Below are positions 143 to 61,462 of a stretch of DNA of 64,000 bases, in pieces; within the stretch, counting starts at the first letter, position 1, and every line of letters starts with the position of its first letter. The position numbers were made by a program, and so were the translations under genes. This DNA comes from an archaeon (GTDB lineage Archaea > Nanobdellota > Nanobdellia > Pacearchaeales > GW2011-AR1): NCBI GenBank assembly GCA_018697035.1, contig JABHSE010000004.1:323300-387299 (forward strand), given 5' to 3'. The notes beneath the pieces are model-generated. The model did not search any database and had not been told where the DNA came from. It was given only the letters and a program-made list of their open reading frames with translations.

Positions 143-190
143 TCCTAACCCCTAACACCCAACTCCCAACTTGAAAATCCCCGATTTTCA
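143..190. repeat. Heptamer element with hairpin at the 3' end of the oxidase gene
   Basis: Four C-rich heptamers (TCCTAAC, CCCTAAC, ACCCAAC, TCCCAAC) occupy 143-170. After one base comes a perfect 8-bp hairpin, TGAAAATC-CCC-GATTTTCA (172-190). The stop codon of the minus-strand oxidase gene lies inside the right arm. The arrangement matches the other heptamer elements of the window. Confidence 0.75.
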
Positions 191-1303
191 TATCACCTTC
201 CCCATATTAAACTTACCCCAGGGATCCGTCCTCTTCTTAACATTCCGCAAAATCTTCTGGTCATTAACCTCAACAAAACCTCTCTTCAACAACCCAATCC
301 CATGCTCACCCGAAACCTGCCCACCCAACCTCTTAACCAACTTCATCATCTCCGGAATCAATCTCTCTTGATCAATACTAAAGCAAGGATGAAGTATACC
401 AACACCAATATGCCCAAAAGTAGGTATACCATTAGCTTCAAGCCAACTCATTAACTTAGGAAACTTATCCAACATAACCTTCGGATCTTCAATCCTAGTA
501 TAACCTTCGCCCGCAACAAAAGGATAAGCCGCATCTCGCATCGCCATTACCTTATCATATTCATCACCCTTCAATTCCCCCTCGTCATTTTCATATTCAA
601 CAATCAAATAATACCCATCCTCTCCAAACCCAACACCCTTACTCATCATCTTATCCAAAAACTCCAACGACGAAACATCCCGCCTCATCTTCAACCTACG
701 AACTAACTCAACAACTTCAAGCAAACTCTCCAACCTAACCAAACTAGCACTCCGCTCCATCACAGGATTTAACTTCAAACAAGCCCGAACAACAACACCC
801 GTAATCCCTTCCATCCCAACATAATCACTCATCTCCGTAATCCCCTTCCTCTCGATATGTCCACTAGCATCCATAACCTCAACCCATTTAACCCAATTCG
901 AAGTCTTCCCATACTTAACACCCCGATTCCCAACAGCATCAGTCGCAATCATCCCACCAATAGTAGCAACCGCATGACTCGACGGCTTAATAGGAAACTC
1001 ACATCCCCACGGCCTAAGATAATCCTGCAAATCATCCAACACAACCCCAGCCTCAATCTCTACTACCCTCCGCTCCTTATTAAAATTAGAAATCCCAATC
1101 ATCTTAGACAAATCCAGAACAACCTCTCCCTGCGGAACAGCCCCACCAGCCAAACCAGTCCCAGCTCCACGAATCACAACTTTATTATTTCCCAAAACGG
1201 CATTCCGAACCTCACCTACATTCTTAGGATGCACAACATCCAAAACCTCTCCTTTCAGCCTAGACGCATCACTCCGATAACTCCCAAAAAAATCCTTCTT
1301 CAT
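188..1303 (-). CDS. FAD-binding 2-hydroxyacid oxidase/dehydrogenase, GlcD-like
   Basis: This is a flavoprotein of the glycolate oxidase/D-lactate dehydrogenase (GlcD, PCMH-type FAD) family, oxidising a 2-hydroxyacid to a 2-oxoacid. The N-terminal FAD domain shows RGAGTGLAGGAVP near residue 45. The C-terminal domain has the FGHIGVGILHP metal-binding histidine segment and SGEHGIGLLK before the end. At 371 residues it is shorter than bacterial GlcD (about 460-500), with a compact central region. Its ATG overlaps the stop of the upstream CCG-domain gene by 4 bp (ATGA), so the two are co-translated and probably form one oxidase complex. The true substrate is unknown. Confidence 0.85.
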   Translation of the reverse strand: MKKDFFGSYRSDASRLKGEVLDVVHPKNVGEVRNAVLGNNKVVIRGAGTGLAGGAVPQGEVVLDLSKMIGISNFNKERRVVEIEAGVVLDDLQDYLRPWGCEFPIKPSSHAVATIGGMIATDAVGNRGVKYGKTSNWVKWVEVMDASGHIERKGITEMSDYVGMEGITGVVVRACLKLNPVMERSASLVRLESLLEVVELVRRLKMRRDVSSLEFLDKMMSKGVGFGEDGYYLIVEYENDEGELKGDEYDKVMAMRDAAYPFVAGEGYTRIEDPKVMLDKFPKLMSWLEANGIPTFGHIGVGILHPCFSIDQERLIPEMMKLVKRLGGQVSGEHGIGLLKRGFVEVNDQKILRNVKKRTDPWGKFNMGKVI

Positions 1304-2028
1304 CTTTTCAAACCTCGCAATTTACCAAGAACAAAACTCGAAAACTCAATCGACTTATCACTCGCCGATTTCAAATTAGCATAACAAAGCCCACAAGGAG
1401 AAATAATCTTGCCGACCTCAGAATCAAAACTCTCAACTCTACTCTTAGCAATATCCTTAGCTAACTTTTCAAAATTCGCCCTCACTCCACCCCCCCCACC
1501 ACAACAAAGCGCACCCTCTCGATTAAACCTAGACTCAACAATCCTTCCACCCAACATTTCAATCACCTCCCTCGGCTCATCATAAATCCTCGAATACCTT
1601 CCCAAATGACAAGGATCATGATAAGCCACAACCTCACTCTCTCCCTTAAATCTCAACCCCTTCTTCTTCAGCCCTCGCAAAATAACAACCGTCGCATGTT
1701 CACAAGGAATATCCCAATCCCGAACCAACTTAGGATAAACATCATTAAACGTATGTAAACACGACGGACAATTGCTAATAATCTTCGTAATCCCTTTATC
1801 CTTAAAAATCTTCAAATTCTTTTCCGCCAACTTCTTAACATCCTTCTTATACCCAGCATTCAAAACTGGCAACCCACAACAAACCGCATCATCCAACATA
1901 ACAAAATCAATCCCCAACCGATTAAAAATCTCCTTATAATTCTCAAACTCCTCCTTCAAAACCCCCTTAGTAAGACATCCAGGATAATAAAGAACCTTCT
2001 CGCTTTTTAACCAAGAAAAAATTCCCAT
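1300..2028 (-). CDS. CCG-domain Fe-S oxidoreductase subunit (GlcF/HdrD/LutA-like)
   Basis: The 242-residue protein has two cysteine-rich CCG modules: YYPGC (about 14) with CCGLP (about 50) and NCPSC (about 87), then HDPCHLGR (about 137), CCGGGGG (about 173) and SPCGLC (about 209). Such modules bind an iron-sulfur cluster in heterodisulfide reductase HdrB/D and in glycolate and lactate oxidase subunits. No N-terminal ferredoxin domain is present, so it resembles LutA more than full GlcF. It is the electron-transfer partner of the overlapping flavoprotein gene. The start overlaps the stop of an upstream leader ORF (TAATG), which suggests translational coupling. Confidence 0.85.
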   Translation of the reverse strand: MGIFSWLKSEKVLYYPGCLTKGVLKEEFENYKEIFNRLGIDFVMLDDAVCCGLPVLNAGYKKDVKKLAEKNLKIFKDKGITKIISNCPSCLHTFNDVYPKLVRDWDIPCEHATVVILRGLKKKGLRFKGESEVVAYHDPCHLGRYSRIYDEPREVIEMLGGRIVESRFNREGALCCGGGGGVRANFEKLAKDIAKSRVESFDSEVGKIISPCGLCYANLKSASDKSIEFSSFVLGKLRGLKR

Positions 2029-2201
2029 TATAAATTAGTCCTCCAGTTAGCCGAACCCCGACCAGGCGCAAGCCGTCCCACCAGCGAAGCGTCCCACCAG
2101 CGAAGCGTCCCACCAGCGAAGCGTCCTTGAGGAACAAAATTCCTCACGCATCCAGGATAATAAAGAACCTTCTCGCCTATTAACCAACTCATCAATCCCA
2201 T
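2028..2201 (-). pseudogene. Truncated duplicate 5' end of the CCG gene, now a coupled leader ORF
   Basis: An ATG at 2201 opens a 57-codon frame whose first 18 residues (MGLMSWLIGEKVLYYPGC) nearly match the N-terminus of the adjacent CCG protein. The frame then enters a hairpin and the 16-mer array, translating as repeats of GRFAGG and TLRWWD type, and ends at TAATG, overlapping the start of the intact gene. A TATA-like stretch (about 2226-2240) lies 25-35 bp upstream. I read this as a partial tandem duplication whose copy was broken by the repeat element and kept as a leader. Confidence 0.6.
2060..2146. repeat. 16-mer array with hairpin (copy R1)
   Basis: A variant unit (ACCAGGCGCAAGCCGTCC) is followed by three units of ACCAGCGAAGCGTCCC (2080-2127, the last ending in T). 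A perfect 7-bp hairpin, TGAGGAA-CAAAA-TTCCTCA (2128-2146), follows with no gap. The same array occurs in the agmatinase and gatD genes and between gyrB and the next gene. Confidence 0.8.
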
Positions 2202-2250
2202 AACAAAAATAACAATCTACCCTACTTAAAATTTTATATACTAAACAACA

Positions 2251-2439: not shown

Positions 2440-2469
2440 ACATCAATAAACAAATAGAACTATATAAAT

Positions 2470-2886: not shown

Positions 2887-3921
2887 TCAAAAAAACCCAA
2901 GCAAACTCCCCGCCAATCCCAACATCACAATCCCCGCAGCCAACCGCATAAACCGCTTATTCCTCTGAACCCAACCATTCACAACCTCAACCTTAGCCCC
3001 CCGATAAACAAAATACGAAATCAAGATAAGCGGCAAAACAAAAATAAAATTATAAATAACCAAATAAACAACACCCTTCATTCCACTATTAGCAATCAAA
3101 GAAAGAATCGCCAAATAAATCCCACCCGTACACGGCAACTCAACCAACGCAACAAGCGTCCCCAAAATAATCAAACTAAAAAAAGTCCCCTTCCGAGCAT
3201 ATTTCTCTAGCCACGGCTTCACCCCCTTAGGAATAGCAAGACTAAAACCAACACCCTCGAAAAAGAAATCCTTAAACTCAACTAGGGCCATAGCCAAAAT
3301 AACAACCCCAATAAAAATCTTCACACCATCCAAAACCAAAAAATTCGAAGCAAACCTCATAATCCCAAAACCAGCCGCGAGATAAACCAAAAAAATAACT
3401 CCAGTATAAACCATCCCACTTCGAAGCGCTCTCTTAGCCGAACCCATAGAAAGCAAAACCGCCATCAAAAATAATAATACCCCAAATGCACAGGGATTAA
3501 TAGAATCAATTAAAGCAGCCCCAACAATGACCCACAAACTCAACTCTCCAAATTTCCGACTTCCGACTTCCGACTTCTTAAAATTAATAATAACATCCTT
3601 CAAATTTTCAATAATCGGACCATCCCCCATCAAATAAGAAAATTCACCTCCCTGCTTTATCACCAAAAACGGAATCTCCCCTGCCTCAACACCAAGCTTC
3701 TTTGCATAATCCAAATACCTCTCACGATTAACCGGACTCGTAACCTCATACTTAGTCAAACTTACACCCTCAATTCCAGAAACATTCTCCAAAATCCCAC
3801 TATCTGCAACAATCTGACAATGCGAACACGACACCGAATAAAAATACGAAACCTCCGTAAGAGGCACAGCCGAAACAAATCCTATCATCAACAAAAAAAA
3901 CAGCAATATAAATTTCTTCAT
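2887..3921 (-). CDS. Membrane thiol-disulfide protein: thioredoxin-like domain fused to a DsbD/CcdA core
   Basis: A signal peptide (residues 1-18) leads into an extracytoplasmic thioredoxin-like domain with the redox pair CSHC near 33-36. A short linker and six hydrophobic segments of the CcdA/DsbD electron-transfer family follow. The two conserved membrane cysteines are visible in INPCAFG and ELPCTGG. Proteins of this type carry reducing power across the membrane to secreted cysteine proteins, which fits the cysteine-rich surface proteins in this window. The interdomain linker (SEVGSRKFG region) is encoded by a small heptamer repeat. Confidence 0.8.
   Translation of the reverse strand: MKKFILLFFLLMIGFVSAVPLTEVSYFYSVSCSHCQIVADSGILENVSGIEGVSLTKYEVTSPVNRERYLDYAKKLGVEAGEIPFLVIKQGGEFSYLMGDGPIIENLKDVIINFKKSEVGSRKFGELSLWVIVGAALIDSINPCAFGVLLFLMAVLLSMGSAKRALRSGMVYTGVIFLVYLAAGFGIMRFASNFLVLDGVKIFIGVVILAMALVEFKDFFFEGVGFSLAIPKGVKPWLEKYARKGTFFSLIILGTLVALVELPCTGGIYLAILSLIANSGMKGVVYLVIYNFIFVLPLILISYFVYRGAKVEVVNGWVQRNKRFMRLAAGIVMLGLAGSLLGFF
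3554..3574. repeat. Three heptamers in the thioredoxin-CcdA linker
   Basis: Three identical TTCCGAC heptamers in tandem fall exactly in the linker between the thioredoxin and membrane domains. No clear adjoining hairpin is seen, so this may be a degenerate or simpler member of the heptamer family. Confidence 0.6.
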
Positions 3922-4029: not shown

Positions 4030-4106
4030 AGCAGACTTAGGCGAAGCGCAAGGTTGCAAAGCGTACAAGCGTACGTGAGCGTTCTCGCAACGAAGCATAA
4101 GTCGCT
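4030..4106. repeat. Three-stem hairpin element (copy A)
   Basis: Nested complementary segments GACTTA/TAAGTC, GGTTGC/GCAAC and GCGTAC/GTACGT (loop AAGC) form one long hairpin. A copy about 85-90% identical in its inner 49 bases lies at 49984-50048, and a structurally similar one with different stem sequences at 24740-24824. Here it begins 12 bp past the stop of the truncated dph2-like gene. It could be a transcript 3'-end structure, a processed small RNA or a dispersed repeat. Confidence 0.6.
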
Positions 4107-4117
4107 AGAAATTAAAA

Positions 4118-7596: not shown

Positions 7597-7695
7597 ATGA
7601 AACCAAATAGAATAACAAAAACCGCCAAGTCATACTCCCAACTCCTAACTCCTAACTCCCAATCGCACCAGAGGTGCTCTCCATGCACCGCCTAA
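7597..7695 (+). CDS. Upstream ORF overlapping the exonuclease start
   Basis: A leaderless-style ATG lies about 25 bp after the TATA-like box CATATAAAG (7568-7576). It reads 32 codons through the heptamer tract and hairpin and ends inside the exonuclease gene, in a different frame. It may be the old exonuclease start, put out of frame by the insertion, or a short regulatory ORF. Confidence 0.4.
   Translation: MKPNRITKTAKSYSQLLTPNSQSHQRCSPCTA
7636..7677. repeat. Heptamer element with hairpin at the exonuclease start
   Basis: Four heptamers (TCCCAAC, TCCTAAC twice, TCCCAAT) at 7636-7663 are followed after one base by the hairpin GCACC-AGA-GGTGC (7665-7677). The right arm contains the possible GTG start of the exonuclease. 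Confidence 0.75.
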
Positions 7696-14453: not shown

Positions 14454-14537
14454 ACCAGCGAAGCGTCCCACCACCGACCAGCGAAGCGTCCCACCAGAGC
14501 AAGCCCAGCTTGCCGTCCATGAAGTCAAAGACTTCAT
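14454..14537. repeat. 16-mer-type array with hairpin at the 3' end of gyrB (copy R2)
   Basis: Two units containing ACCAGCGAAGCGTCCC and a variant unit with an internal hairpin (GCAAGC-CCA-GCTTGC, 14499-14513) are followed without a gap by the perfect hairpin ATGAAGTC-AAA-GACTTCAT (14519-14537). The gyrB stop codon lies in the right arm. Confidence 0.75.
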
Positions 14538-23944: not shown

Positions 23945-24729
23945 AACTCTACACAACCAACCGAATCAACGCACTAGGACTAAAGGGCCCAGAACAAATC
24001 CCAGAAGCAATAAAACAATTCCTAAAAATACCAACAACTCACATACAAGTAGACAACGGAAATATCCAAGAATCAGAACAAATCCTATACAACAAAGCCA
24101 AACAAATCTTCACCAACTCGGGAGACAAAGTCTCCCTCCCACTACCCACCAGCGAAGCGTCCCACCAGCGAAGCGTCCCACCAGCGAAGCGTCCTGAAAA
24201 CCTGAAGATTTTCATTGGCGGCGACCACTCCATAACCTACCCACTATTCAAAGCTTTTCAAAAACAACATGAAAACCCCTTCCTGATAATCTTCGACGCC
24301 CACGCTGATTGCATGTCACCTCAACAAGAACCAACCCACGAAGAATTCTTAAGAGCGATAATAGAACAAGGCTTCCCTTCAAATAAAATCATCCTAATAG
24401 GCGTAAGAAAAATAGAACCCGAAGAACAAGAATTCCTGGACGCCCACAAAATAAAAATCATACAAGATCCAAAACAAATCCTAAGCTTAACAAAAGATAA
24501 AGACCTCTACATCTCAATCGACATCGACGCACTAGATCCCAAATCCGCACCAGCCGTAAACTACCCAGAACCAAACGGCCTAATAGAAAAAGAATTCTTC
24601 CACATCTTCGAACAACTCCTAAGACAAAACCCCAAGGCAATAGACATAGTAGAAGCAGTTCCACAAAAAGATCAAGACAACAAAACCCTAAAGCTAATCA
24701 TAAAAATAATCAAAGAAACAACTCTTTAA
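23941..24729 (+). CDS. speB: Agmatinase / ureohydrolase family enzyme
   Basis: The dimanganese site is visible in GGDHSITYP, FDAHADC and SIDIDALDP. The enzyme removes urea from agmatine or an aminopropylated agmatine, supplying the polyamine used for hypusine. It is 262 residues, last in the dys-decarboxylase-agmatinase operon. The segment before GGDHS carries about 16 residues (TSEASHQRSVPPAKRP) encoded by three 16-mers, so a surface loop has grown by repeat insertion. Confidence 0.92.
   Translation: MKLYTTNRINALGLKGPEQIPEAIKQFLKIPTTHIQVDNGNIQESEQILYNKAKQIFTNSGDKVSLPLPTSEASHQRSVPPAKRPENLKIFIGGDHSITYPLFKAFQKQHENPFLIIFDAHADCMSPQQEPTHEEFLRAIIEQGFPSNKIILIGVRKIEPEEQEFLDAHKIKIIQDPKQILSLTKDKDLYISIDIDALDPKSAPAVNYPEPNGLIEKEFFHIFEQLLRQNPKAIDIVEAVPQKDQDNKTLKLIIKIIKETTL
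24120..24214. repeat. 16-mer array flanked by hairpins inside the agmatinase gene (copy R3)
   Basis: Three units of ACCAGCGAAGCGTCCC lie at 24148-24195. On the right TGAAAA...TTTTCA (24195-24214) pairs; the right arm encodes the native strand before GGDHS. On the left is a further perfect hairpin GGGAGAC-AAA-GTCTCCC (24120-24136). Three units equal 48 bp, so the frame is kept. Confidence 0.8.
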
Positions 24730-31563: not shown

Positions 31564-31942
31564 TGACAAAAATCACAAAATCACTTTAAGAATATTATTA
31601 TACTAAACAACACCTTACAATACTTAAACATCAAAACCCATATCATACCATGCAATAAGAAGATTTATACATAACAGAAAAACCAAGTAAAAGAAAACCA
31701 GTATCAAAAATAGAATACAGACTAAAACAATACAACATGACAACACTAGAACTCGAAAACCTACCACCACAAGACGGCCTCACAAGAATAATCGAAAACC
31801 CAAGAGCAGCCCGAAAGAAAAACACCTTCCTGTCCTGCTAAAAAATATCGCCATTAACTTTTCCTTAATCTTATTTCGTACATAATAAAAAAGTTGAATA
31901 CTAATAAAAATATAAATACTAAGAATTAATAGAATAGTTAGA
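31564..31942. other. Gap of about 370 bp with one doubtful small ORF
   Basis: No strong gene is seen. A plus-strand ATG at 31737 opens a 34-codon frame ending at 31841 with the basic tail NPRAARKKNTFLSC; the same frame is open further upstream without an ATG, so it may be the remnant of a longer gene. An AT-rich stretch before 31943 should be the promoter of the next gene. Confidence 0.35.
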
Positions 31943-44016: not shown

Positions 44017-44106
44017 CGGGCAAAGCCCTCGTGCCCCTAACACCTAACCCCTAACTCCCAACAATTAATCCCCAAACACCACTCGTCTTGCAAGACATTT
44101 TCGTCT
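44017..44106. repeat. Heptamer element between hairpins in the 43.9-44.2 kb gap
   Basis: Four heptamers (CCCTAAC, ACCTAAC, CCCTAAC, TCCCAAC; 44035-44062). A short hairpin GGGC-AAA-GCCC precedes them and the perfect palindrome GTCTTGCAAGAC (44095-44106) lies 32 bp after. The gap 43933-44185 holds no gene that I can support. Confidence 0.55.
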
Positions 44107-46707: not shown

Positions 46708-48149
46708 CCAATCAACCTCTTCAAACAATCCCCCGCAACCTTAAAATCCGCCCTCCGCTCACTCAACCGCATCACACTCCCAATCAAAAAATTCAAACTA
46801 GCCGCCTTCCCACCCTTATACTCCTCCACAACATGCGCATTCTCCCCTATCACCTGCCTACACAAATTCTCAATAGCAGCCTCATCTATATTCCCAATCT
46901 CCCCCTTATGCTCCGCCAAACTAAAACTCTTCGGCACAAAATCATTCATAATCTGCTTCCCCTTAAGAACAGTTATATCCCCAGCCTCAACCGCTTTAAT
47001 CAACTCCGCCAAATGCTCCGGCCTTATATCAACATCCGCATCCTCCAAACTCTTCTTATTATAATTAAGAACCCGAAGCAATTCAACAGTAACCCAACTA
47101 ATCGCCTTCCCGACTCCCAACCCCGAACCCCCAACTCCAGACTTCGCGAGCTCCTCGAAGAACTCTACGAGTTCTAGATTCCTCGCGAGAATCTTCGCAT
47201 CCCCAGCAGAAACCTTATGAGTCTTAAGCAACCGAGCCAACTTAACCTCAGGCATCTCCGGCATCTTTCCTTTTATCTCCTTAATTAGTTTAGAATCAAT
47301 CTTCATCACAGCCAAATCCGGATCCGGAATAAACCGATAGTCCGAAGCATTCTCCTTACTCCTCATCTTAACCGTAATCCCCTTGCTCTCATCATAAGCC
47401 CGAGTCTCCTGTGGCAATAGTTCCATTAATTCCTTACTCCCAACTTCAAACCCCGAACTCTCAACTACTTCAAGTTGCCTCGCAACTTCGAAGTTAATCG
47501 CCTTCCGAATCTTTTCAAGCGAATTCAAATTCTTCATCTCAACCCTCTCGCCCCCAGTCGAAACATTAACATCAACCTTAATCCCAGCATTCCGCCTCAA
47601 CGCCTTAATATAACTAAGACTAATAACCAAACTCTTCAACCACTCAACAACCTGTTCCGAGTCACTAAACTCCGGAGCCGTAACCATCTCAATCAAAGGC
47701 AACCCCGACCGATTATAATTAATCTTCCCACTCTCAGGATTCCACTGCGCCGGATCCTCCTCCAAATGAATCTCCCAAATATTAATCCCCTTAAACTTCC
47801 CCCCCTTAGCATTAACGCTCGCATGAGCCCCCGAAACAGTCGTCTGATACCCCTTCGGATTATCCGCCCAATCATAATGCTTCCTCTGCCAAACAGTCTC
47901 CATATTAATCTTAGACCCAAACACCAAAGCAATCTGAATCATCTTCTTCACAGCCTCCTCATTCGCAGCCATAGGCTTACTCCCCGGCGTCCCCGTACAA
48001 ATCGGACAAATCCTATCATTCACTCCCCCTTCCTTTTCTCCTAACTTCAAACCCCCAACACCTAACTCGGACGCGCCCGTCCGACACATACAAAACAACT
48101 TCTCCCGAGTATCCAAATACCCATGAACCTCAAGCCCTATCTTTACCAT
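46704..48149 (-). CDS. gatB: Asp/Glu-tRNA amidotransferase subunit B
   Basis: GatB binds the mischarged tRNA and activates the acyl group. It shows IGLEVHGYL, the zinc cysteines in LFCMC and CPICTGTPG, the GAHASVNAKGG region, SGLPLIEMVT and the helical and YqeY-like C-terminal domains. It is 481 residues. Three heptamer-hairpin elements are embedded: in the loop between the zinc pairs (ASELGVGGLKLGE), in VESSGFEVGSKE and in KSGVGGSGLGVGK. Each adds glycine-rich residues in a loop. GatA and GatC are 11-13 kb away. Confidence 0.95.
   Translation of the reverse strand: MVKIGLEVHGYLDTREKLFCMCRTGASELGVGGLKLGEKEGGVNDRICPICTGTPGSKPMAANEEAVKKMIQIALVFGSKINMETVWQRKHYDWADNPKGYQTTVSGAHASVNAKGGKFKGINIWEIHLEEDPAQWNPESGKINYNRSGLPLIEMVTAPEFSDSEQVVEWLKSLVISLSYIKALRRNAGIKVDVNVSTGGERVEMKNLNSLEKIRKAINFEVARQLEVVESSGFEVGSKELMELLPQETRAYDESKGITVKMRSKENASDYRFIPDPDLAVMKIDSKLIKEIKGKMPEMPEVKLARLLKTHKVSAGDAKILARNLELVEFFEELAKSGVGGSGLGVGKAISWVTVELLRVLNYNKKSLEDADVDIRPEHLAELIKAVEAGDITVLKGKQIMNDFVPKSFSLAEHKGEIGNIDEAAIENLCRQVIGENAHVVEEYKGGKAASLNFLIGSVMRLSERRADFKVAGDCLKRLIG
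47108..47174. repeat. Heptamer element with hairpins in gatB (C-terminal copy)
   Basis: Five heptamers (TCCCGAC, TCCCAAC, CCCGAAC, CCCCAAC, TCCAGAC; 47108-47142). CTTCG-C-GAG-CTC-CTCGAAG follows, and next to it GAACTC-TAC-GAGTTC (47160-47174). It encodes KSGVGGSGLGVG. Confidence 0.7.
47438..47493. repeat. Heptamer element with hairpin in gatB (middle copy)
   Basis: Four heptamers (TCCCAAC, TTCAAAC, CCCGAAC, TCTCAAC; 47438-47465), then after two bases the long hairpin CTTCAAGTTGC-CTC-GCAACTTCGAAG with one bulged C. It encodes RQLEVVESSGFEVGS. Confidence 0.78.
48039..48084. repeat. Heptamer element with hairpin in gatB (N-terminal copy)
   Basis: Four heptamers (TCCTAAC, TTCAAAC, CCCCAAC, ACCTAAC; 48039-48066) followed directly by the perfect 7-bp hairpin TCGGACG-CGCC-CGTCCGA. 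It lengthens the loop between the two zinc-binding cysteine pairs. Confidence 0.78.
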
Positions 48150-48702: not shown

Positions 48703-49956
48703 ATGAAAACAAAAACATTCCAACCAGGAGATTTAATACAATTAAAAACAAAATCAAAAACCTGGAAAGGCCACGCCCTCCAATCTCACGACTCAGAAAT
48801 AATTCTCCTAAAGCTTCAATCAGGCTACAACATAGGGATAAGAGAATCCGAAATCTTAGACGCAAAAATACTAGAGCCCCACCAGCGAAGCGTCCCACCA
48901 GCGAAGCGTCCCACCAGCGAAGCGTCCCACCAGCGAAGCGTCCCACAAAAGCTACCTAATGTAGCTTTTGTCATTACCGGCGGAACAATCTCTGCAAGAA
49001 TAGACCCAAAATCAGGAGGAACATTCCCAACAAACGCCAAAGGCCTCCTAGAAATCGCACCAGAGCTAAAAGAAATCTGTAATCCAATAATCGAAAACCC
49101 ATTCATGAAACTCTCAGAAGACATGGACCCAAAAGACTGGAAAACAATCGCAGAAATTTGCAAGAAACATTTAGACGACCCAAAAATATCAGGAATCATA
49201 GTAACCCACGGCTCAGACACCTTGCATTACACAGGCGCAGCTCTGTCCTACTTCCTCCAAGACCTAGGAAAACCCGTAGCACTAACATTCTCTCAAAGGT
49301 CAATCGACCGAGCATCAACAGACGCAAACCTAAACCTAATATGCGCCGCAAAATACGCAACATCAGATATAGCCGAAGTCGCAATAATCGGACACGAAAC
49401 AGAAAACGACTCATCATGTATTGCAATCCAAGGAACAAAAGCAAGAAAAATGCACACATCAAAAAGATCAACCTTCAAACCAATTAACTCAGAACCAATA
49501 GCGAGAATAACCAGAGATTCCTTTGAGATTCTAAAAGAATTCAATGCAAGAGATGATTCAAGAAAAACCAAACTAGACACTAAATATCAAAACAAAGTAA
49601 CCTCAATAAAAGCCCACCCAGGGCGAGACCCCGCGATAATAGATTTCTACCTCCAACAAGGATACAAAGGCTTAGTAATCGAAACAACCGGACTCGGACA
49701 CACACCAGCAAAAAGCTCAGAGCACAACTGGCTCCCAAAAATCAAAAAAGCAATAGAAGCAGGGATGACAATCATAGCAACCGCACAAACCATTAATGGG
49801 AACCTAAACCCAAACGTCTACTCCGCAGGTCGAGATCTCCAAAAAACCGGAATCATATTCTCAAACCTAACAACAGAAACAGCCTTAGTAAAATTAGGCT
49901 GGGTACTCGGACATAAGCAATGGAACAAGTCCAAAAAAATGAAGGAAAACCTTTAA
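48703..49956 (+). CDS. gatD: Glu-tRNA(Gln) amidotransferase subunit D
   Basis: GatD is the asparaginase-like subunit that releases ammonia for GatE. An N-terminal barrel (FQPGDLIQLKTKSKTWKG) is followed by the asparaginase domain with VITGGTISARID and VTHGSDTLHYTGAALSY. It is 417 residues. The linker between the domains (about 62-85) is encoded by four 16-mers and reads HQRSVPPAKRPTSEASHQRS. A TATA-like box is about 25 bp before the ATG. Confidence 0.95.
   Translation: MKTKTFQPGDLIQLKTKSKTWKGHALQSHDSEIILLKLQSGYNIGIRESEILDAKILEPHQRSVPPAKRPTSEASHQRSVPQKLPNVAFVITGGTISARIDPKSGGTFPTNAKGLLEIAPELKEICNPIIENPFMKLSEDMDPKDWKTIAEICKKHLDDPKISGIIVTHGSDTLHYTGAALSYFLQDLGKPVALTFSQRSIDRASTDANLNLICAAKYATSDIAEVAIIGHETENDSSCIAIQGTKARKMHTSKRSTFKPINSEPIARITRDSFEILKEFNARDDSRKTKLDTKYQNKVTSIKAHPGRDPAIIDFYLQQGYKGLVIETTGLGHTPAKSSEHNWLPKIKKAIEAGMTIIATAQTINGNLNPNVYSAGRDLQKTGIIFSNLTTETALVKLGWVLGHKQWNKSKKMKENL
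48881..48971. repeat. 16-mer array with 11-bp hairpin inside gatD (copy R4)
   Basis: Four perfect units of ACCAGCGAAGCGTCCC (48881-48944) are followed directly by ACAAAAGCTAC-CTAAT-GTAGCTTTTGT. The right arm encodes the native VAFV strand of the asparaginase domain, so the left arm looks like an inverted copy of host sequence. Confidence 0.85.
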
Positions 49957-49983: not shown

Positions 49984-50048
49984 AAGACTAGGCGCAAGGT
50001 TGCGAAGCGTACATTGGTACGTGAGCGTTCTTGCAACGACGTATTAAT
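49984..50048. repeat. Three-stem hairpin element (copy B)
   Basis: Stems GGTTGC/GCAAC and GCGTAC-ATTG-GTACGT match copy A, with about 43 of 49 inner bases identical; the outer stem is weak. It fills the gap between the convergent gatD and the small membrane gene. Confidence 0.6.
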
Positions 50049-50057
50049 CATTAAAAA

Positions 50058-50321
50058 TTACTTCTTAGATACATCCCAACTAATCGGATACCTCTTCGCT
50101 ACAAAATTGTAGATTGCAATTATAACAACCATACTCAAATATCCAATAACTCCACCAAGAACCGGAGCCGTAACAAAAGCCGAAACAGCAGTAACATTAA
50201 TTCCCTGCGTAGCTAAAACATCTCGCAAACTCCATTGCAAAATACCAGCAATAAGATACATCACCAAAGCCAAGGCTCCAAAAAACACAGCCGAATTATA
50301 ATTAATCTTTGTTAATTTCAT
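50058..50321 (-). CDS. Small membrane protein with Shine-Dalgarno start
   Basis: About 87 residues with two hydrophobic spans (SAVFFGALALVMYLIAGILQ and LGGVIGYLSMVVIIAIYNFV). The start at the second M (MKLTKINYN) follows GGAGGTG by 4 bp; the upstream GTG would lie within that site. One of few genes here with a clear ribosome binding site. Confidence 0.68.
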   Translation of the reverse strand: MKLTKINYNSAVFFGALALVMYLIAGILQWSLRDVLATQGINVTAVSAFVTAPVLGGVIGYLSMVVIIAIYNFVAKRYPISWDVSKK

Positions 50322-50383: not shown

Positions 50384-51790
50384 ATGAAACATAATTACAA
50401 AACTCTCGGACTAAAATCCGGCCTAGAAATACATCAACAGCTAGACACTCACAAACTATTCTGCAACTGCCCCTCTCTTCTCAGGCAAGACAAACCACTG
50501 CGAGAAATAAAAAGAACCCTGAACCCAGTCATCGGAGAAACAGGCATAGTAGATATAGCAGTAGAACACGAAGCAAAACAAAACAAAAATTTCACATACC
50601 AAGTCTACGACACAAACTGCCTAGTCGAAACAGACGAAGAACCGCCACATCTCATAAACCAAGAAGCCCTAAAAACCGCACTACAAATAGCACACCTACT
50701 CAACTGCAAAATATTCCCTACAACTCAAATCATGCGAAAAACCGTAACCGACGGCTCAAACACTTCAGGCTTCCAAAGAACAGTCCTCCTAGCCCACGAC
50801 GGCCACATAACAATATCATCCGGGAAAAAAATCGCAATCGACTACCTCATGCTCGAAGAAGACTCCGCCAGAAAAGCAACTCCGAACTCCGAATACCCAA
50901 CTCCGAACAATCCAATTTTCAAATTGGATCGCCTTGGTATCCCCCTGGTAGAAATCGCAACCGGACCCCACATGAATACCCCAGAAGAAATAAAAGAAGC
51001 CGCACTAAAACTCGGCGAAATCCTAAGAGCCTGCAAAGTCAAAAGAGGCATCGGAACAATCCGTCAAGACGTCAACATCTCAATCAAAGGGTCAAAGCGA
51101 GTCGAGATAAAAGGATTCCAAGATCCAAAGATGATGACAAAAACAATAGACCTCGAGATAGAAAGGCAAATAAAATGTATTAAAGAAAAAACCTGCACAA
51201 ACGAAGTCCGAAACGCTCTCCCTAATGGAACAACCGAATTCCTAAGGCCAATGCCAGGAGCCGCACGAATGTATCCCGAGACCGATCACCCTCTCCTAAA
51301 AATATCACGAGATCTAATCAACGAAACCAAACGAGACCTTCCAAAGCTCCAATCCGAAAACAACTCCTACCTAAAAGAATTCGGCCTCAACCCAGAACTA
51401 ATCAAATTAATCCTAAAGAAAAACAAACTAGAAGACTTCAAAACCTTAATCCACGAACATAACAACCCAAACCTAGTCGCAAAAATGCTAACCCTATTCC
51501 AAACCAAACCTGAAACATCAATCCACAACATCGAAGAAATACTAGAGAAAATCGAAAACAAAGAGATTCCAGAAACCGACGCCAAAACAATAATGCAAAA
51601 AATATCCCAAGGTATACCACTAAAGGAAGCCATAAAAAAATCCGATATCGACTTAGAATCCGAGACACAAAAAATCATAAAACAAAAACCAGGTCTCTCT
51701 CAAGGCGCCTATATGGGACTTCTAATGGGAAAATTCAAAGGCCAAATCTCAGGTAAAGAAATAGCTGACATTCTAAAAAAATTAATCTAA
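50384..51790 (+). CDS. gatE: Glu-tRNA(Gln) amidotransferase subunit E, short form
   Basis: GatE converts Glu-tRNA(Gln) to Gln-tRNA(Gln) with GatD. It has LKSGLEIHQQLDT, CNCPSLL, EEDSARKA, LDRLGIPLVEIATGP, RGIGTIRQDVNISI and LPGGT-type PNGTTEFLRPMPGAARMYPETD. At 468 residues it is about 150 shorter than usual: the AspRS-like (GAD) insertion before the NGTTEFLRP segment is missing. A heptamer-hairpin element encodes ATPNSEYPTPNNPIFKL. Leaderless start, TATA 27 bp upstream. Confidence 0.95.
   Translation: MKHNYKTLGLKSGLEIHQQLDTHKLFCNCPSLLRQDKPLREIKRTLNPVIGETGIVDIAVEHEAKQNKNFTYQVYDTNCLVETDEEPPHLINQEALKTALQIAHLLNCKIFPTTQIMRKTVTDGSNTSGFQRTVLLAHDGHITISSGKKIAIDYLMLEEDSARKATPNSEYPTPNNPIFKLDRLGIPLVEIATGPHMNTPEEIKEAALKLGEILRACKVKRGIGTIRQDVNISIKGSKRVEIKGFQDPKMMTKTIDLEIERQIKCIKEKTCTNEVRNALPNGTTEFLRPMPGAARMYPETDHPLLKISRDLINETKRDLPKLQSENNSYLKEFGLNPELIKLILKKNKLEDFKTLIHEHNNPNLVAKMLTLFQTKPETSIHNIEEILEKIENKEIPETDAKTIMQKISQGIPLKEAIKKSDIDLESETQKIIKQKPGLSQGAYMGLLMGKFKGQISGKEIADILKKLI
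50881..50929. repeat. Heptamer element with palindrome inside gatE
   Basis: Four heptamers (TCCGAAC, TCCGAAT, ACCCAAC, TCCGAAC; 50881-50908), one base, then ATCCAATTT-TC-AAATTGGAT (50910-50929). The right arm encodes the native KLDRLGIP strand. Confidence 0.8.
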
Positions 51791-51791
51791 A

Positions 51792-53047: not shown

Positions 53048-56000
53048 CTAAACCCCACCACAAGGAAGACAAGACCAAGTACCTCTCGAGCAAATACAAT
53101 CACAACAACCACTACCACATCCACCAGTTTGTTTCGTATCACCATGCACACAGTCAGGAACAGGATCACAATCCTTAGTCCCATCAATAAGTCTCGTATT
53201 CTCACAATTACTTGTCTGAATAAGGCCATAATACTTACAAACGGTATTAGCGGCAGGGGTCCAAGTAGTATCAATACAAGGAGATGATGCTTCCTCAACA
53301 AAAACAGGAGTCTCACTCACCGAAACAGAACTCGCCGAAACAACTTCCGTCTCAGCTACCTCTTCGTCGTAAACAGTTATTATATGCGTCACCAAAACTT
53401 CATCTGTATCTACAATAGAAGTCAAATCAACATTCTTTTCACCTTCCTCACTCCATAAAACAAATACCGGATCTTTATCCTCAAACTCAAATTCATATAA
53501 ACTCTCCGCAAAATTTATTTTAGTCACAGATTTAAAATAATTAGTTTTTTCAACAAATAGTTTTTCAGTATAATATGCAGGTTTTCTTGCAAACGATTTT
53601 TCTTCACCTTCCAAGAGCGCCGTATTCAAAAAACTCTGAGACCAACCAACTGTTGGGATAAGCGAACTCCAAAAAGATTTTTCAGCTCCCCAATTAAAGA
53701 AAATAGTTTGCATCTTAACCACCTCTTCGGCATGCATTTCATATTCTTCCGGCGTATCAAAGGGATCATCCTTTTGCATTGGGCCACCAATTTCAAGACT
53801 CCAAATAGGTTTACCAGACGGCAAAATAGATTCTACGGCATCGAGTTCACTTTCAATTTCTGAGGAATTCCCATAGTAATGCACGTCAATAACATCATAA
53901 TAATCACTATAATCATCTAACATTTCTTTTACATATTTACTTTTTGGACTACTAGCGTTACCAACAATCGCACCCAAAACGACAGTCATCTCAGGATCAG
54001 CAGCCTTAATCGTTTCATATGATACCTGTATATATTTCCCAAAATCTTCCGTTACATTATCCCAGTTATCATCACGCCACTCCACAAGTCGTGATATATG
54101 TTTAATAGAAGAAGGTGGACTACCAAACCACTGCCAGAATGGCTCATTGCCTAATTGAATATATTTTACTTTATATTCCAACCCCTCATAATCATCTATT
54201 CCATCATTATCAATACCTTCAATGAGATCTGCAAGGTCCTCCTTATATGCTGTAATGTTACTCGGAATTCCACCGATACCCCATCTCCCAGAAATATTTG
54301 AAAAGTCAATATTATTCAAAACCTTATTTCCCCATTTTTCGTTATTGCTAGTTGGGGTCACAGTTAGAACAAGTTCTATACCATCATCTTGATATATTTT
54401 AAGCCATTTTGTTACGAAGGACTCACCGCTAAAATGATACATTCCTCTAATCAAGGCAATATCAAGGTTTCTAGTATCTTCTGTTCTGTCCCAAATTGCA
54501 TGCAAACCAAATCGATCAATACCTCTCTCACAATCCTCCGGACAATCCTCATCAACCCCACAAATCCCATCCCCACAAACTACCCCTCCCCTCTTACTAA
54601 CACTCAACAAATTCTCACTCTTAATTTCATCACCATCAACCACAGCACCAAAATAATATTCAGGGTCTCCACCAAGAAGCCCATCCCTCTGCCATTCCGC
54701 AACCCAGCTAGTAGAAGCTCTACCGCCATCAAACACCACAGAAACAGGATCATTCTGGATATAATCATCACCAAGTAAATCATCTTCCCAAACACTAAAA
54801 TCAACACTCAACCCGTCACACTTTTCACTTCCCTCAACAACCAAAGACACAACTTCACCCTCAACAGCTTCTGTTTCTGACCAACTTGCAGATATAAGAT
54901 TACAAGATGTTGGCTCTGCACTTGTCTCTTCAACAAAGATAGGCGAATCACCTACCGGCACAGAACTCGCCGAAACAACTTCCGTCTCAGGCATCTCCTC
55001 GCCATCAACAGTCACAAGATGCGTCACAAGAACATTAGATGTCTCAAGATAAGAAGACAAATCCACACCTTTATCTCCATCCTCACTCCATAAAACATAA
55101 ACAGGATCCTTATCCTCAAACAAAAATTTGTAAACAAATTCATCAATTGTCTCAACCTCTACAAATCCATCAAGCTTCTCCACCATTAATTTATATGTAT
55201 AAAAAATCGGCTTTTTTCGCACTACAGGCGGATCTACAAACTCATCAGCGCCCAATATCCCCACAAACCTCCACACAGGAAGATCATATTCCTTCTGATC
55301 AGTGGTCCACGAAATATAAATCTGATCCATTCCACTGGCAAAAGCATATACAGCCTTTTTAGTATAATATCTCGACTGTTCTGCTTCAACAAGATTCCTT
55401 GCAGCTAAGTAATTGGGATTTGAACTATCATGAAGAATTCTGTAATATGTTTCATAATCTGAGTAATATGTCGAAGGTAAATCCAAAATACCCATATAAT
55501 CCGGACCAGACATTGCATCCTCAATTATTATTGACTTATCAGTATATTTTCTTATATAATCCACTGTTCCATTGGCCTCATTCCAGTGCCTATTAGCATG
55601 TATACTTACAGCATCATATTTTCCATATTGTATAAAATATTCAAAAGCTTCCAGGGTCCAATTTGCCCATTCGTACAAATCAACATCTCTATCCTTTAAT
55701 TCAAGTAATCTGTCATCAAATTCTTCTTCGCTCGGGTTATCAATAAACAGCCCACCAAAGGTCCAACCCGAACCCATTATTATTACATCAGGGTTAGCCC
55801 TTTTCGCTGCATTATATGCCAAATTATGCATTTCAACAAACTGCTCTTTTGTTCCCTCAAACTTTTCTATAGAGGGTTCTGTATCAATTTGATAATAAGT
55901 TATATTTCCATTATATCTTTTAACAATATATTTAACCCATTCCTCGAATAACCCTACATCCTTAGGAAACTGAGTAACATCCGCACCACCCTTTCGCTCA

Positions 56001-56950
56001 TCTGCACAGGAAAGCAAATTCACCTGCAAAGTTCTATTATACTCCCAATATTTCTTTTGCATCTCATCTAAATAATTTAAATCTTCCCAAGTTTTTGATA
56101 CATTTTCAAAAAAACAAGTTGCAAAAGTTCCTATAATACCATCATCTATTTCCGAAAATATTTGTGGAAAGTCTATATCAGGATTCAAGAACGCACCATC
56201 AATTCCAAAACGCTTTGGAGAAGATCCACAATCTTTCAAACAACTTCCAGAGGTCTCATTTCCATTACAAATCCCGTCCCCACAAAAAATTGGTTCTTTG
56301 GGACAATCAATCGGACAATTGAATACGGTTTCTTCGGCACCACAAACCTCATCTCCACAAAACCCTATATTAATCTCGCAATCTTCAGGGCATCCAGCAG
56401 ACACAGAAGAGCTCTCTTCCCCAGCATCACAAACCCCATCTCCGCAATAACTAGGTTCTCTTGGACAATCTTCACTGCAATTTATGAAATGTTCATTAGC
56501 ATCACAAACGCCATCACCACAAAACCCTATATTAATCTCACAATCCTCAGGGCAACCACCAGCTCCCGAAGAAGAATCATCCTCTCCAACATCACAAATA
56601 CCATCTCCACAATAACTTGGCTCCTCTGGACAATCTTGAGAGCAATTTATTGGACTCTCTCCAGCATCACAAACATCATCTCCGCAGAATCCTACAGTGT
56701 TACTATAACCTGACGAGCCTGAAGAAATAGAAAACTCACTAAAACTCGCAACATCAGAATCCAAATCAATATCCTCCAAACTCAACACACAATCCGCCGC
56801 ACAACTCTCCAAACTCTCCCCATCAGAACAAACATCGTCCCCACAAACTTCATCATCCCCTATATAATACATAGCAACAAATATAGCAACAGCAACAAGC
56901 ACAATAATACCAAGAACAAATAACAAACTCCCAAAACCTTTTTTCAACAT
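53048..56950 (-). CDS. Giant anchored protein: cysteine repeats and two glycoside-hydrolase-like barrels
   Basis: An N-terminal anchor (residues 5-29) is followed by seven CGDGxCxxxE-type cysteine repeats to about 240. Barrel 1 (about 245-600) has a candidate acid in YQIDTEPSI and nucleophile in IIIEDAMSG. A beta domain follows (LMVEKLDGF...VLWSEDGDKGVDL), an Ig-like domain, and an eighth cysteine repeat. Barrel 2 (about 815-1150) has IQLGNEPFW and WSLEIGGPM, matching clan A glycosidases such as GH39. A second copy of the beta domain precedes a cysteine-rich end. At 1300 residues it is the largest gene here. Substrate unknown. Confidence 0.8.
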   Translation of the reverse strand: MLKKGFGSLLFVLGIIVLVAVAIFVAMYYIGDDEVCGDDVCSDGESLESCAADCVLSLEDIDLDSDVASFSEFSISSGSSGYSNTVGFCGDDVCDAGESPINCSQDCPEEPSYCGDGICDVGEDDSSSGAGGCPEDCEINIGFCGDGVCDANEHFINCSEDCPREPSYCGDGVCDAGEESSSVSAGCPEDCEINIGFCGDEVCGAEETVFNCPIDCPKEPIFCGDGICNGNETSGSCLKDCGSSPKRFGIDGAFLNPDIDFPQIFSEIDDGIIGTFATCFFENVSKTWEDLNYLDEMQKKYWEYNRTLQVNLLSCADERKGGADVTQFPKDVGLFEEWVKYIVKRYNGNITYYQIDTEPSIEKFEGTKEQFVEMHNLAYNAAKRANPDVIIMGSGWTFGGLFIDNPSEEEFDDRLLELKDRDVDLYEWANWTLEAFEYFIQYGKYDAVSIHANRHWNEANGTVDYIRKYTDKSIIIEDAMSGPDYMGILDLPSTYYSDYETYYRILHDSSNPNYLAARNLVEAEQSRYYTKKAVYAFASGMDQIYISWTTDQKEYDLPVWRFVGILGADEFVDPPVVRKKPIFYTYKLMVEKLDGFVEVETIDEFVYKFLFEDKDPVYVLWSEDGDKGVDLSSYLETSNVLVTHLVTVDGEEMPETEVVSASSVPVGDSPIFVEETSAEPTSCNLISASWSETEAVEGEVVSLVVEGSEKCDGLSVDFSVWEDDLLGDDYIQNDPVSVVFDGGRASTSWVAEWQRDGLLGGDPEYYFGAVVDGDEIKSENLLSVSKRGGVVCGDGICGVDEDCPEDCERGIDRFGLHAIWDRTEDTRNLDIALIRGMYHFSGESFVTKWLKIYQDDGIELVLTVTPTSNNEKWGNKVLNNIDFSNISGRWGIGGIPSNITAYKEDLADLIEGIDNDGIDDYEGLEYKVKYIQLGNEPFWQWFGSPPSSIKHISRLVEWRDDNWDNVTEDFGKYIQVSYETIKAADPEMTVVLGAIVGNASSPKSKYVKEMLDDYSDYYDVIDVHYYGNSSEIESELDAVESILPSGKPIWSLEIGGPMQKDDPFDTPEEYEMHAEEVVKMQTIFFNWGAEKSFWSSLIPTVGWSQSFLNTALLEGEEKSFARKPAYYTEKLFVEKTNYFKSVTKINFAESLYEFEFEDKDPVFVLWSEEGEKNVDLTSIVDTDEVLVTHIITVYDEEVAETEVVSASSVSVSETPVFVEEASSPCIDTTWTPAANTVCKYYGLIQTSNCENTRLIDGTKDCDPVPDCVHGDTKQTGGCGSGCCDCICSRGTWSCLPCGGV

Positions 56951-59005: not shown

Positions 59006-59008
59006 AAT

Positions 59009-59419: not shown

Positions 59420-59469
59420 AAAATACTAAACAACCAAAACATTATAAACATTTCCGAATATACATAAAC

Positions 59470-59733
59470 ATGAAACAAAACTCCCTCTGGCGCAAAGTCA
59501 CCCAAGAAGAAAAAAGTCAAATCAAAAAAGACTCTAAAAAAGTTCTAATCGAATTCGCTTCAAAACTCTCAAAAATCAAAGCCAAAGAATCCCATATAGA
59601 AAATAATTCTGGCACAAGAGAAGAAGGCGACGGGTGGAAAACAGACAAGGAATTCAAAAGCACAACACTAGCAAACGCCCCCTTCGTAGAAGACAACTTT
59701 TTAGTCGCAGAAAAAGGAGCTTGGAAAAAATGA
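59470..59733 (+). CDS. gatC: Amidotransferase subunit GatC-like
   Basis: An 87-residue protein: SLWRKVTQEEKSQIKKDSKK, then a helical KSxVxEFASKL-like stretch, and a C-terminal segment NAPFVEDNFLVAEKGAWKK that matches archaeal GatC tails. The ATGA overlap with the Nudix gene and the nearby gatA support the call. GatC wraps the GatA-GatB interface. Confidence 0.75.
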   Translation: MKQNSLWRKVTQEEKSQIKKDSKKVLIEFASKLSKIKAKESHIENNSGTREEGDGWKTDKEFKSTTLANAPFVEDNFLVAEKGAWKK

Positions 59734-60131
59734 AAACAATCGAAGCCCACGGAATGGTTATAATTTACGAAAACAAACTACTAGTAACAAAAGACGAAAA
59801 AGACGACTTCTATAAAATACCAGGAGGACGTCCAAAAGAAAACGAAGCTGGAGCTAAAACAGCAACAAGAAGATTAACTGAAGAAACTGGACTAATAGGA
59901 ATAATAGGAAAAAAATTATCCACAAAAATACTAATAAAAAACTTAGTAAGAGATGAAAAAACAAGAATAGAATTACACCATTACGAAGGAAAATTAGAAA
60001 CACCTCCACAAAACTTCGACAATTACACACATGGCAAACACCAGGTCAAATGGCTACCAATAAACAATATTCAAAATTATGAAGTCGCCCCAAACATAAC
60101 ATACCTAATAGAAAAAGGAGATATAGCATGA
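59730..60131 (+). CDS. Nudix hydrolase inserted between gatC and gatA
   Basis: The Nudix box is GGRPKENEAGAKTATRRL followed by TEETGL (the usual RE is RR here). It is 133 residues. It overlaps both gatC and gatA by 4 bp, so it is part of the operon. It may clean up a modified nucleotide; the substrate is unknown. Confidence 0.88.
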   Translation: MKTIEAHGMVIIYENKLLVTKDEKDDFYKIPGGRPKENEAGAKTATRRLTEETGLIGIIGKKLSTKILIKNLVRDEKTRIELHHYEGKLETPPQNFDNYTHGKHQVKWLPINNIQNYEVAPNITYLIEKGDIA

Positions 60132-61462
60132 CACTAAAAACAAAACTAAAACAAATCCAATCAGGCAAACTCTCAGCCGTAGAAAATGTTCTAGCTTTCT
60201 CCAAACAAATAGCAACCCCGAAATCCAAAGACCTAAACATATTCCTAGAATTAAACGAAGACGCAATAGAACAAGCAAAAGCAATTGATAAAAAAATCAA
60301 AGCAGGAACTCAAGGAAAACTAGCCGGCCTCTGCTTCGCAATCAAAGCCAATATCTCCGCAAAACACATGATAGTATCCTGCGCCTCAAAAACGCTAGAA
60401 AATTATACCGGACCTTTCAACGCAAGCGTCGTCAACAAACTCATCAATGAAGACGCAATACTTTTAGGAATGCTAAACATGGACGAATTCGCATGCGGAG
60501 GATCCGGAGAAACATCAGCCTTCGGACCAACAAAAAACCCAACCAATCCTGAACTAATTCCAGGCGGCTCATCCTCGGGCCCAGCGGCAGCAATCGCCGC
60601 AGACCTAGCAGACTTCACACTAGGCTCAGATACAGGAGGCTCAATAAGAAATCCAGCTTCCCATTGCGGAATCGTAGGGCTAAAACCAACATACGGAGCA
60701 GTCTCACGATACGGACTAATAGATATGGCAATGTCACTAGACTGCATCGGCCCACTAGCTAGAACCCCAGAAGATTGTAAGCTGATATTCGACATAATCA
60801 AAGGACAAGACAATTTCGATCAAACAACCAGAACTCCCAACTCCCAACTCCCAACTACAAACCACAAGGGCGTCATCGGTCTAGTAAACATAAAAGAATT
60901 CGCAGATAAAAGAATCGCCAATCTAATCGAAGAACAAACTAAAAAAACCGCCAAACAACACAACTGGAAAATCAAAAAAATTGATCTACCTCTAGACATC
61001 GCAATACAAACATACTACATCATAGTCTACACCGAAGTCTTCTCTTGTACCAGAAAATTTGACGGAAGAAGATTCGGTAAAAAAATCGAAGATACGGCAG
61101 GCCCAGAAGTCATGCGAAGAATAATCGGAGGCTCCGAAATAACAAAAGCCGAACACGAAGGAAAATATTACAGGGAAGCTCTAAAAGCCAGAAACCATAT
61201 CAAACAAGAATTCGAAAAAATCTTCGAAGAGGTCGACGCAATTATTCTTCCAACCTCACCAGCATTCCCACATAAGATAGGAGAGAAAATCTCAACCGAA
61301 GAAATGTACAACTATGACACGCCAACCGTACTAGCAAATATAGTCGGTCTACCAGCAATATCAATCCCTGCAGGAAAAATAGACGACAAACATATTGGAC
61401 TCCAAGTTATGGCACCACATTTTCAAGAAGAACTACTTTTCAAATTAGCCAAAAATTTCTAA
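60128..61462 (+). CDS. gatA: Asp/Glu-tRNA amidotransferase subunit A
   Basis: The amidase-signature subunit shows the catalytic lysine in CFAIKANIS, GGSSSGPAAAIAADLADF and the serine nucleophile in GSDTGGSIRNPASHCG. It is 444 residues. Three heptamers encode RTPNSQLPTTN in a surface loop. With GatB and GatC it forms GatCAB, which most likely makes Asn-tRNA(Asn), since GatDE serves glutamine. Confidence 0.95.
   Translation: MTLKTKLKQIQSGKLSAVENVLAFSKQIATPKSKDLNIFLELNEDAIEQAKAIDKKIKAGTQGKLAGLCFAIKANISAKHMIVSCASKTLENYTGPFNASVVNKLINEDAILLGMLNMDEFACGGSGETSAFGPTKNPTNPELIPGGSSSGPAAAIAADLADFTLGSDTGGSIRNPASHCGIVGLKPTYGAVSRYGLIDMAMSLDCIGPLARTPEDCKLIFDIIKGQDNFDQTTRTPNSQLPTTNHKGVIGLVNIKEFADKRIANLIEEQTKKTAKQHNWKIKKIDLPLDIAIQTYYIIVYTEVFSCTRKFDGRRFGKKIEDTAGPEVMRRIIGGSEITKAEHEGKYYREALKARNHIKQEFEKIFEEVDAIILPTSPAFPHKIGEKISTEEMYNYDTPTVLANIVGLPAISIPAGKIDDKHIGLQVMAPHFQEELLFKLAKNF
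60835..60855. repeat. Three heptamers inside gatA
   Basis: Three identical TCCCAAC units in tandem (21 bp, frame-neutral). No convincing hairpin adjoins them. Confidence 0.65.

Follow-up and report, generated by a model that had tools for sequence, protein, structure and literature searches.

Strand-oriented tandem heptamer tracts with abutting, site-specific hairpins in the genome of a Pacearchaeales archaeon

Why should one short C-rich heptamer recur in tandem at many places of an archaeal genome, on one chromosome strand and often next to a hairpin that is different at each site? This question is raised by a 64,000-nucleotide stretch (the window; positions 323,300 to 387,299 of contig JABHSE010000004.1, assembly GCA_018697035.1) from a Pacearchaeales archaeon of the GW2011-AR1 lineage. 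An initial annotation had described ten places in the window with tandem TCCNAAC-type heptamers, and had proposed a dispersed 28-bp element of four heptamers followed by a hairpin. The genome holding the window (G000; 808,832 bases in four contigs) was analyzed together with its relatives, giving 16 genomes of one genus, all draft assemblies. Three of them, G000, G008 and G011, carry the elements, and G009 and G003 are near relatives. Judging from the known distribution of GatDE, the GatD, GatE and GatB genes mark the organism of the window as an archaeon. Stretches around the elements and sample stretches were the sequence basis. The assemblies are only about 80% complete, which should be kept in mind for gene absences. 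The dispersed composite proved to be real, but it goes beyond this heptamer and beyond a length of 28 bp. Its constant features are a fixed polarity, a one-sided hairpin and a short C-rich repeat that covers about 30-37 nt.

Tracts were present at all ten places exactly where they had been annotated. In G000 they consist of three to five units of the consensus [TCA]CCNAAC. The array score, calculated over four consecutive units and compared with Markov shuffles, was above every shuffle value at nine of the ten places, and the tenth (3547-3574) was just above the shuffle maximum (21.4 versus 20.2). No tract was detected by this score on the minus strand of the window. A search of G000 for the four-unit pattern, allowing at most three mismatches, gave 80 matches on the forward and 4 on the reverse strand, against 3 and 0 for the reversed pattern used as a control. 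The shuffles and this control rule out chance or base composition as the source of the tracts. A uniform count gave 39 tracts in G000, of which 22 have four units, 14 have five and three have three. Positions 2, 3, 5, 6 and 7 of the unit are conserved at 90-98%, position 1 is mainly T or C, and position 4 can be any of the four bases. The C at positions 2 and 3 is kept in 93% and 96% of units, and a third C, at position 4, in only 55%. An Rfam search found only a tRNA.

The hairpins were examined with two detectors. A stem score of at least 7 immediately after the tract, in the 3' direction of the C strand, was found for 47% of 38 elements and for 0.7% of 3000 random window positions. The mean DNA folding energy of the 30 nt on this side was -4.0 kcal/mol for these elements and -0.6 kcal/mol for random positions. 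The second, independent detector found an abutting stem at 20 of the 39 uniformly counted tracts, compared with 1.5% of random positions (Fisher p = 6e-25). Hairpins thus follow the tracts far more often than they occur elsewhere, and, as had been annotated for the window, the stem sequence is different at every heptamer site of G000. Perfect hairpins over the window as a whole were at the shuffle level, which means that the excess beside the tracts is specific; a general richness in hairpins can be rejected as its cause.

The position of the hairpin is also regular. In less selected samples from the carriers, hairpins were located at the 3' end of the tract in 27 cases and at the 5' end in four (p = 3e-5); the G011 contigs in this sample were picked because they hold tracts, so that the tract density in them is not representative. 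The same samples contained no 3'-end hairpin in G009 and two in G003, both beside short arrays of 9- and 11-nt units. Between the last unit and the stem there are 0-1 nt in G000 (18 of 20 cases), 3-4 nt in G008 and 2-4 nt in G011; in other words, the phase of the junction between stem and tract is fixed within each genome. This one-sidedness and the chromosome polarity described below were missing from the initial annotation.

Of seven hairpins that had been named in the window, six are good. The tracts and hairpins of the window given here with coordinates lie on the plus strand. The four-unit tract at 143-170 is followed by the hairpin TGAAAATC-ccc-GATTTTCA (172-190), directly 3' of the stop codon of a minus-strand gene. 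The tract at 7636-7663, upstream of an exonuclease-like gene, has four units and a 5-bp hairpin, GCACC-aga-GGTGC (7665-7677). Another four-unit tract (31383-31410), within the minus-strand open reading frame 30148-31569, is joined to CTTATC-gaa-GATAAG (31411-31425). Elements 2 and 3 of the GatB gene have tracts at 47438-47465 and 48039-48066, with hairpins at 47467-47494 and at 48067-48084 (TCGGACG-cgcc-CGTCCGA), respectively. The tract in the GatE linker (50881-50908) precedes the 9-bp hairpin ATCCAATTT-tc-AAATTGGAT (50910-50929). The seventh case, the five-unit tract of GatB element 1 (47108-47142), did not stand equally well: its abutting stem is weak (4-5 bp), and a better one lies about 18 nt further on. 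No adjacent hairpin was seen at three tracts, namely the variant with three to four TTCCGAC units in a membrane-protein gene (3547-3577; place 3554), the four-unit intergenic tract at 44035-44062 and the five-unit tract in an amidase linker (60828-60862; place 60835).

Polarity relative to the chromosome is the strongest regularity of these elements. All tracts are on the C-rich chromosome strand, regardless of gene direction: 39 of 39 in G000, 19 of 19 in G008 and 26 of 26 in G011, where a looser detector gave 37 of 37. A G000 contig of opposite skew contains a single clear element, and its orientation is likewise reversed. On the C strand, the hairpin comes after the tract in each of the three carriers. 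The GC skew of the window is very strong (mean about -0.38). Replication direction and the assignment of leading and lagging strands were taken from GC skew alone, and tract orientation, the property to be compared with KOPS- or Chi-like signals, follows this skew without exception. Skew by itself was rejected as the cause: G009 and G003 are equally skewed, with contigs running the opposite way, and lack hairpin-tipped C-rich tracts of 7- or 8-mers. The only arrays of G003 are two short ones of other periods. G009 and G003 have the same gene order as the carriers, and the elements are absent from them. Within G000, contig C1 (149 kb) is nearly empty of elements.

Some further observations concern the skew. 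Its magnitude, about 0.3-0.4, is held over hundreds of kilobases in G000 and some relatives and is weaker in other members of the genus. Contig C3 of G000 is poor in elements at about 105-190 kb and 197-285 kb; in the sampled parts of these stretches (130-150 kb and 240-260 kb) the skew is weak or mixed, and these might be acquired islands or rearranged segments. In G008, all 108 tract matches are forward on every contig that has matches, which is unlikely under random contig orientation.

Each carrier has its own version of the repeat. Among the 16 genomes, the CCNAAC pattern is present in many copies in G000 and G011; the others have next to none of the four-unit pattern. G008 has 108 forward and no reverse copies of the pattern relaxed to YCNAAY, with the unit TCTAAT, and the unit of G011 is ACCTAAC. 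Five positions are common to G000 and G008 (GatB elements 2 and 3, and the locus pairs L020/L148, L047/L139 and L048/L140). At these positions the heptamers differ, as at GatB element 3, and the hairpins, where present, differ too. Even so, the near arm matches the far arm of its own genome, though the far arms differ. Exact tandem TCCNAAC tracts also occur outside the genus, in cyanobacteria, Bacteroidetes, Verrucomicrobia and many other groups. At 94 such tracts from bacteria of many phyla there was no excess of hairpins (1% versus 1.5%), and the idea that hairpins are a universal property of TCCNAAC tracts was rejected on this ground.

Comparison with orthologous genes, which had been suggested as a check, showed that, measured against element-free orthologues, the tracts in coding sequence have been inserted or have replaced other sequence. 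The GatB elements add 12, 10 and 5 residues compared with element-free relatives (10 at element 2 and 12 at element 3), and the gene with the tract at 31383 is longer by 8 residues than in G009 and G003. In the amidase, the tract takes the place of a linker of similar length (+2 residues). Element-free relatives had no hairpin at the compared sites. At three sites, 31383, GatB element 3 and GatE, conserved coding sequence forms the far arm of the hairpin (native Cys-Arg-Thr codons in GatB element 3 and Lys-Leu-Asp codons in GatE), and the near arm, on the tract side, is in the inserted or variable stretch. At all three sites the near arm is the exact reverse complement of the far arm, as expected for a template switch. 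The far arm is usually identical to native codons. In GatE of G011 the hairpin is the same as in G000, and the tract consists instead of CGACAAC repeats.

Whole tracts were also copied between loci. The 28-mer TCCTAACCCCCAACTCCTAACCCCCAAC is found at three unlinked loci of G000 and four copies of TCCCAAC at two, giving four identical pairs in total. When units were shuffled among tracts, the average was 0.1 pairs and none of 2000 shuffles reached four; with units reordered within tracts, four pairs were reached in 10 of 2000 trials. The hairpins at loci with identical 28-mers are different or missing.

The plan is not tied to the heptamer. The 16-mer CCCACCAGCGAAGCGT, essentially confined to G000, has 11 forward and no reverse matches in this genome. 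All four multi-copy 16-mer loci of the window have a hairpin, each different, after GTCC. The 3.3 copies at 2074-2126 are abutted by TGAGGAA-caaaa-TTCCTCA (2128-2146), and the irregular copies at 14458-14503 are followed by ATGAAGTC-aaa-GACTTCAT (14519-14537). Within an arginase-family gene, 3.1 copies (24145-24194) precede TGAAAA..TTTTCA in arginase codons (24195-24214). The fourth locus, the GatD linker, has 4.3 copies (48878-48946) and the 11-bp hairpin ACAAAAGCTAC-ctaat-GTAGCTTTTGT in conserved GatD codons (48945-48971). The same place of GatD is occupied by an 8-mer in G008 and a 7-mer in G011, each again followed by a hairpin in the same codons; the position of the far arm is fixed and the near arm is shifted by one codon from genome to genome. 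The stem carries an Ile-to-Phe change. Neither repeat nor hairpin is present at this site in G009 and G003. Strict base-by-base covariation in GatD was rejected, as the stems of G000 and G008 are in different registers. Abutting hairpins are also found at additional 7- and 8-mers of G008 and G011, genomes in which 16-mers occur as well. Altogether, 7-, 8- and 16-mers other than the initial heptamer, at least a dozen in number, follow the same plan. This means that the sequence of the repeat is interchangeable and is not the defining feature. Since hairpins are found at all four multi-copy tracts that a family essentially confined to G000 has in the window, they seem to arrive with the insertion and not by slow selection.

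It should be mentioned that the 16-mers of G000 at 48878-48946 and of G011 at locus L346 each consist of a heptamer plus GCGAAGC, a sequence that forms an extremely stable DNA mini-hairpin. In addition, several intergenic tracts have a separate, dispersed palindrome, TCCATGAGAAAT..GTGTCGAAGACAC..AATTTTTTATGGAA, immediately on their 5' side; palindromes of the TCCATGAGAAAT type are located at 2760-2810 of L042 and 1030-1080 of L048 in G000, and at 1740-1780 of L140 and 1940-1985 of L144 in G008.

How could such elements arise? Read 5' to 3' on the G strand, the order is native far arm, short loop, reverse-complement near arm, repeat of 30-37 nt and native sequence. We tentatively favor the reading that the elements are scars of strand-specific, replication-coupled template switching. 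A 3' end on the G-rich strand would stall, fold back and copy its own flank, which would give the near arm. It would then switch to an existing repeat tract elsewhere, copy about 30 nt, and finally return to its own template. Such events might be tolerated mainly in protein linkers and just past stop codons. Composition, polarity, one-sidedness and near-arm complementarity are seen directly in the data. Template switching accounts for the polarity, the one-sidedness, the identities of the arms, the shared tracts and the hairpins on the young 16-mer insertions. It is known that template switching creates and repairs perfect hairpins, with stems made in single events (PMC8794818), and that yeast has fold-back inverted insertions of about 5-34 bp (PMC11724301).

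Several points weigh against this reading. It leaves unexplained the dominance of one heptamer per genome, the unit of 7 or 8 nt and the preference for four to five units, and the fixed junction phase may point to an end that is defined. Conserved codons contain both arms in GatD and in GatB element 2, so a native arm plus its copy is not found everywhere. A hairpin is missing from about half of the G000 tracts, and the leading and lagging strands were assigned from GC skew alone. A more specific proposal, which we regard as rather unlikely, is that a small archaeal lineage has a new strand-specific insertion system, in which a putative polymerase or recombinase activity would write a repeat "dialect" of about 30 nt beside a hairpin templated from the target, repeatedly at the same sites.

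The main rival to template switching is a selected, oriented site of chromosome maintenance, similar to KOPS, Chi or a loading site for single-strand-binding protein; this is possible but doubtful. The unstructured C-rich tract of about 30 nt and the hairpin would be read by a translocase, a nuclease or a protein binding single-stranded DNA, and the dialect would co-evolve with that protein. Such a site would agree with the complete polarity, the preferred tract length and fixed phase, the use of the same positions by G000 and G008 with genome-specific dialects, and the retention of hairpins though both arms differ between genomes. However, G009 and G003 do without the elements although their gene order and skew are the same, other members of the genus have hardly any copies of the four-unit pattern, and C1 contains very few elements. 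The variety of unrelated units within a single genome, the half of the tracts without hairpins and the Ile-to-Phe change within the GatD stem are also difficult to reconcile with selection. A mobile element is clearly unlikely. Here a putative single-strand recombinase would recognize hairpins in the exposed lagging-strand template and insert the repeat beside them, as with attC or REP. Strand bias, fixed junction phase and identical tracts at unlinked loci would fit, and the CGTC(C) tag before the hairpins of the 16-mer family resembles that of tagged REPs (PMC3733652). But hairpin sequences are not conserved within a family, and the compared sites of element-free relatives contain no hairpin. 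In addition, the Y1 (IS200-type) transposase PF01797 was not found in any of the three carriers, at about 80% completeness, and is present in six non-carriers; an IS200/RAYT origin was rejected for this reason. The reverse transcriptase PF00078 was not found in the incomplete genomes G000 and G008, and G011 has a broken copy. A telomerase-like or retron origin was rejected on the former finding. The telomere likeness of the G strand, pointed out in the initial annotation, is not supported as a mechanism either, as the G008 unit, ATTAGAG, has no GG runs; this unit likewise speaks against G-quadruplexes as a general cause.

Another reading, which we consider quite improbable, is slippage beside a hairpin: a template hairpin would stall lagging-strand synthesis, the short sequence immediately preceding it would be repeatedly duplicated, and quasipalindrome correction would perfect the hairpin. 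This would explain the abutting position, the one-sidedness and the polarity, as well as the variety of units, with three different repeats at one site in GatD. However, one unit at 39 loci and whole 28-mers common to several loci mean that the units are not simply local, and unit variation within tracts follows one consensus. Very improbable, finally, is an element acting in RNA as a terminator or 3' untranslated structure of minus-strand genes. Most intergenic elements are located 7-24 nt past the stop codon of a minus-strand gene, with the hairpin between stop codon and tract, and 21 of 25 genic elements of G000 are in minus-strand genes. But these 25, out of 38 elements, are inside coding sequence, the other four are in plus-strand genes in the opposite sense, including GatE with one of the best hairpins, and the orientation follows the skew without exception. 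Loss of a hairpin nuclease was also considered as a cause and rejected. NurA (PF09376) is missing from all 16 genomes of the genus and present in control archaea, and a Rad50-like protein, below the curated cut-off, is present in the three carriers and some others.

Two other repeats of the window are mentioned here for completeness. An intergenic palindrome, GTTGCGAAGCGTAC..GTACGTGAGCGTTCTTGCAAC, is repeated at 4041-4110 and 50002-50060. The region 53048-56950 is a 1300-residue open reading frame without a Pfam match, which holds two copies of a tandem repeat of 162-165 bp.

Dispersed four-unit heptamer repeats have been known for years without a mechanism. A self-templated hairpin on a constant side and strand links such repeats to the direction of DNA synthesis; the elements would document template switching in nature, and comparison among relatives would allow the events to be dated. 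Should they be under selection instead, archaea would have an oriented chromosome signal of a new kind. Metagenomic reads that allow a test of both readings probably exist already.

KOPS and Chi are G-rich on one strand, oriented along the chromosome and found as species dialects; they are single 7-8-mers, very numerous, with a biased but incomplete orientation and without tandem tract or hairpin. The present elements share the one-strand G-richness, the orientation and the dialects, and differ in the tandem tract with its hairpin and in the completeness of the polarity. We know of no template-switch hairpins that are coupled to the insertion of a shared tandem tract or dispersed with chromosome-wide polarity. 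Template-switch hairpins and quasipalindrome correction are alike in that perfect stems arise by reverse-complement copying of adjacent sequence (PMC8794818, PMC7202029). Tagged REP/RAYT elements also have a short hairpin beside a conserved unpaired tag, comparable to CGTC before the hairpins of the 16-mer family, but REP stems are conserved within families (PMC3733652), whereas each stem differs here and the carriers lack a Y1 transposase. Borg tandem repeats are likewise archaeal, strand-asymmetric in composition, both genic and intergenic, and fast-evolving. Borg arrays, however, consist of perfect units that seem to be seeded locally, with partial repeats on their flanks; within genes the unit length is a multiple of three, and the available part of the report mentions no abutting hairpins (PMC9879509). 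The units described here are 7 or 8 nt long, degenerate, varying within tracts and common to several loci.

The TAACTGA direct repeats of Beggiatoaceae and cyanobacteria form dispersed sets of two to six heptamers at strain-specific positions; unlike the present tracts, they are mostly just upstream of start codons, with no hairpin predicted and no chromosome-wide polarity shown (PMC4679880). The GGGNATC heptamer repeats of Xanthomonas and Nostoc (Rehm et al. 2015, PMC4692102) are, like those here, tandem heptamers scattered over the genome, in which one position is N, four units are preferred and the consensus is specific to the genome. They form G-quadruplexes, are mostly intergenic and have no leading or lagging preference in Xanthomonas, and the available part of that paper mentions no systematic abutting hairpin. 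The units here do not all have the run of at least three G by which repeats of that type are recognized, and those of G008 lack even GG; the tracts are mostly genic, their polarity is complete and hairpins abut them. An archaeal element of this plan, which the initial annotation had not known to be described, was not found in the open-access literature that was searched. Tandem heptamers of this sort are already known for other units, either with the preference for four units (PMC4692102) or as dispersed sets (PMC4679880). What is new here is the abutting hairpin together with the polarity.

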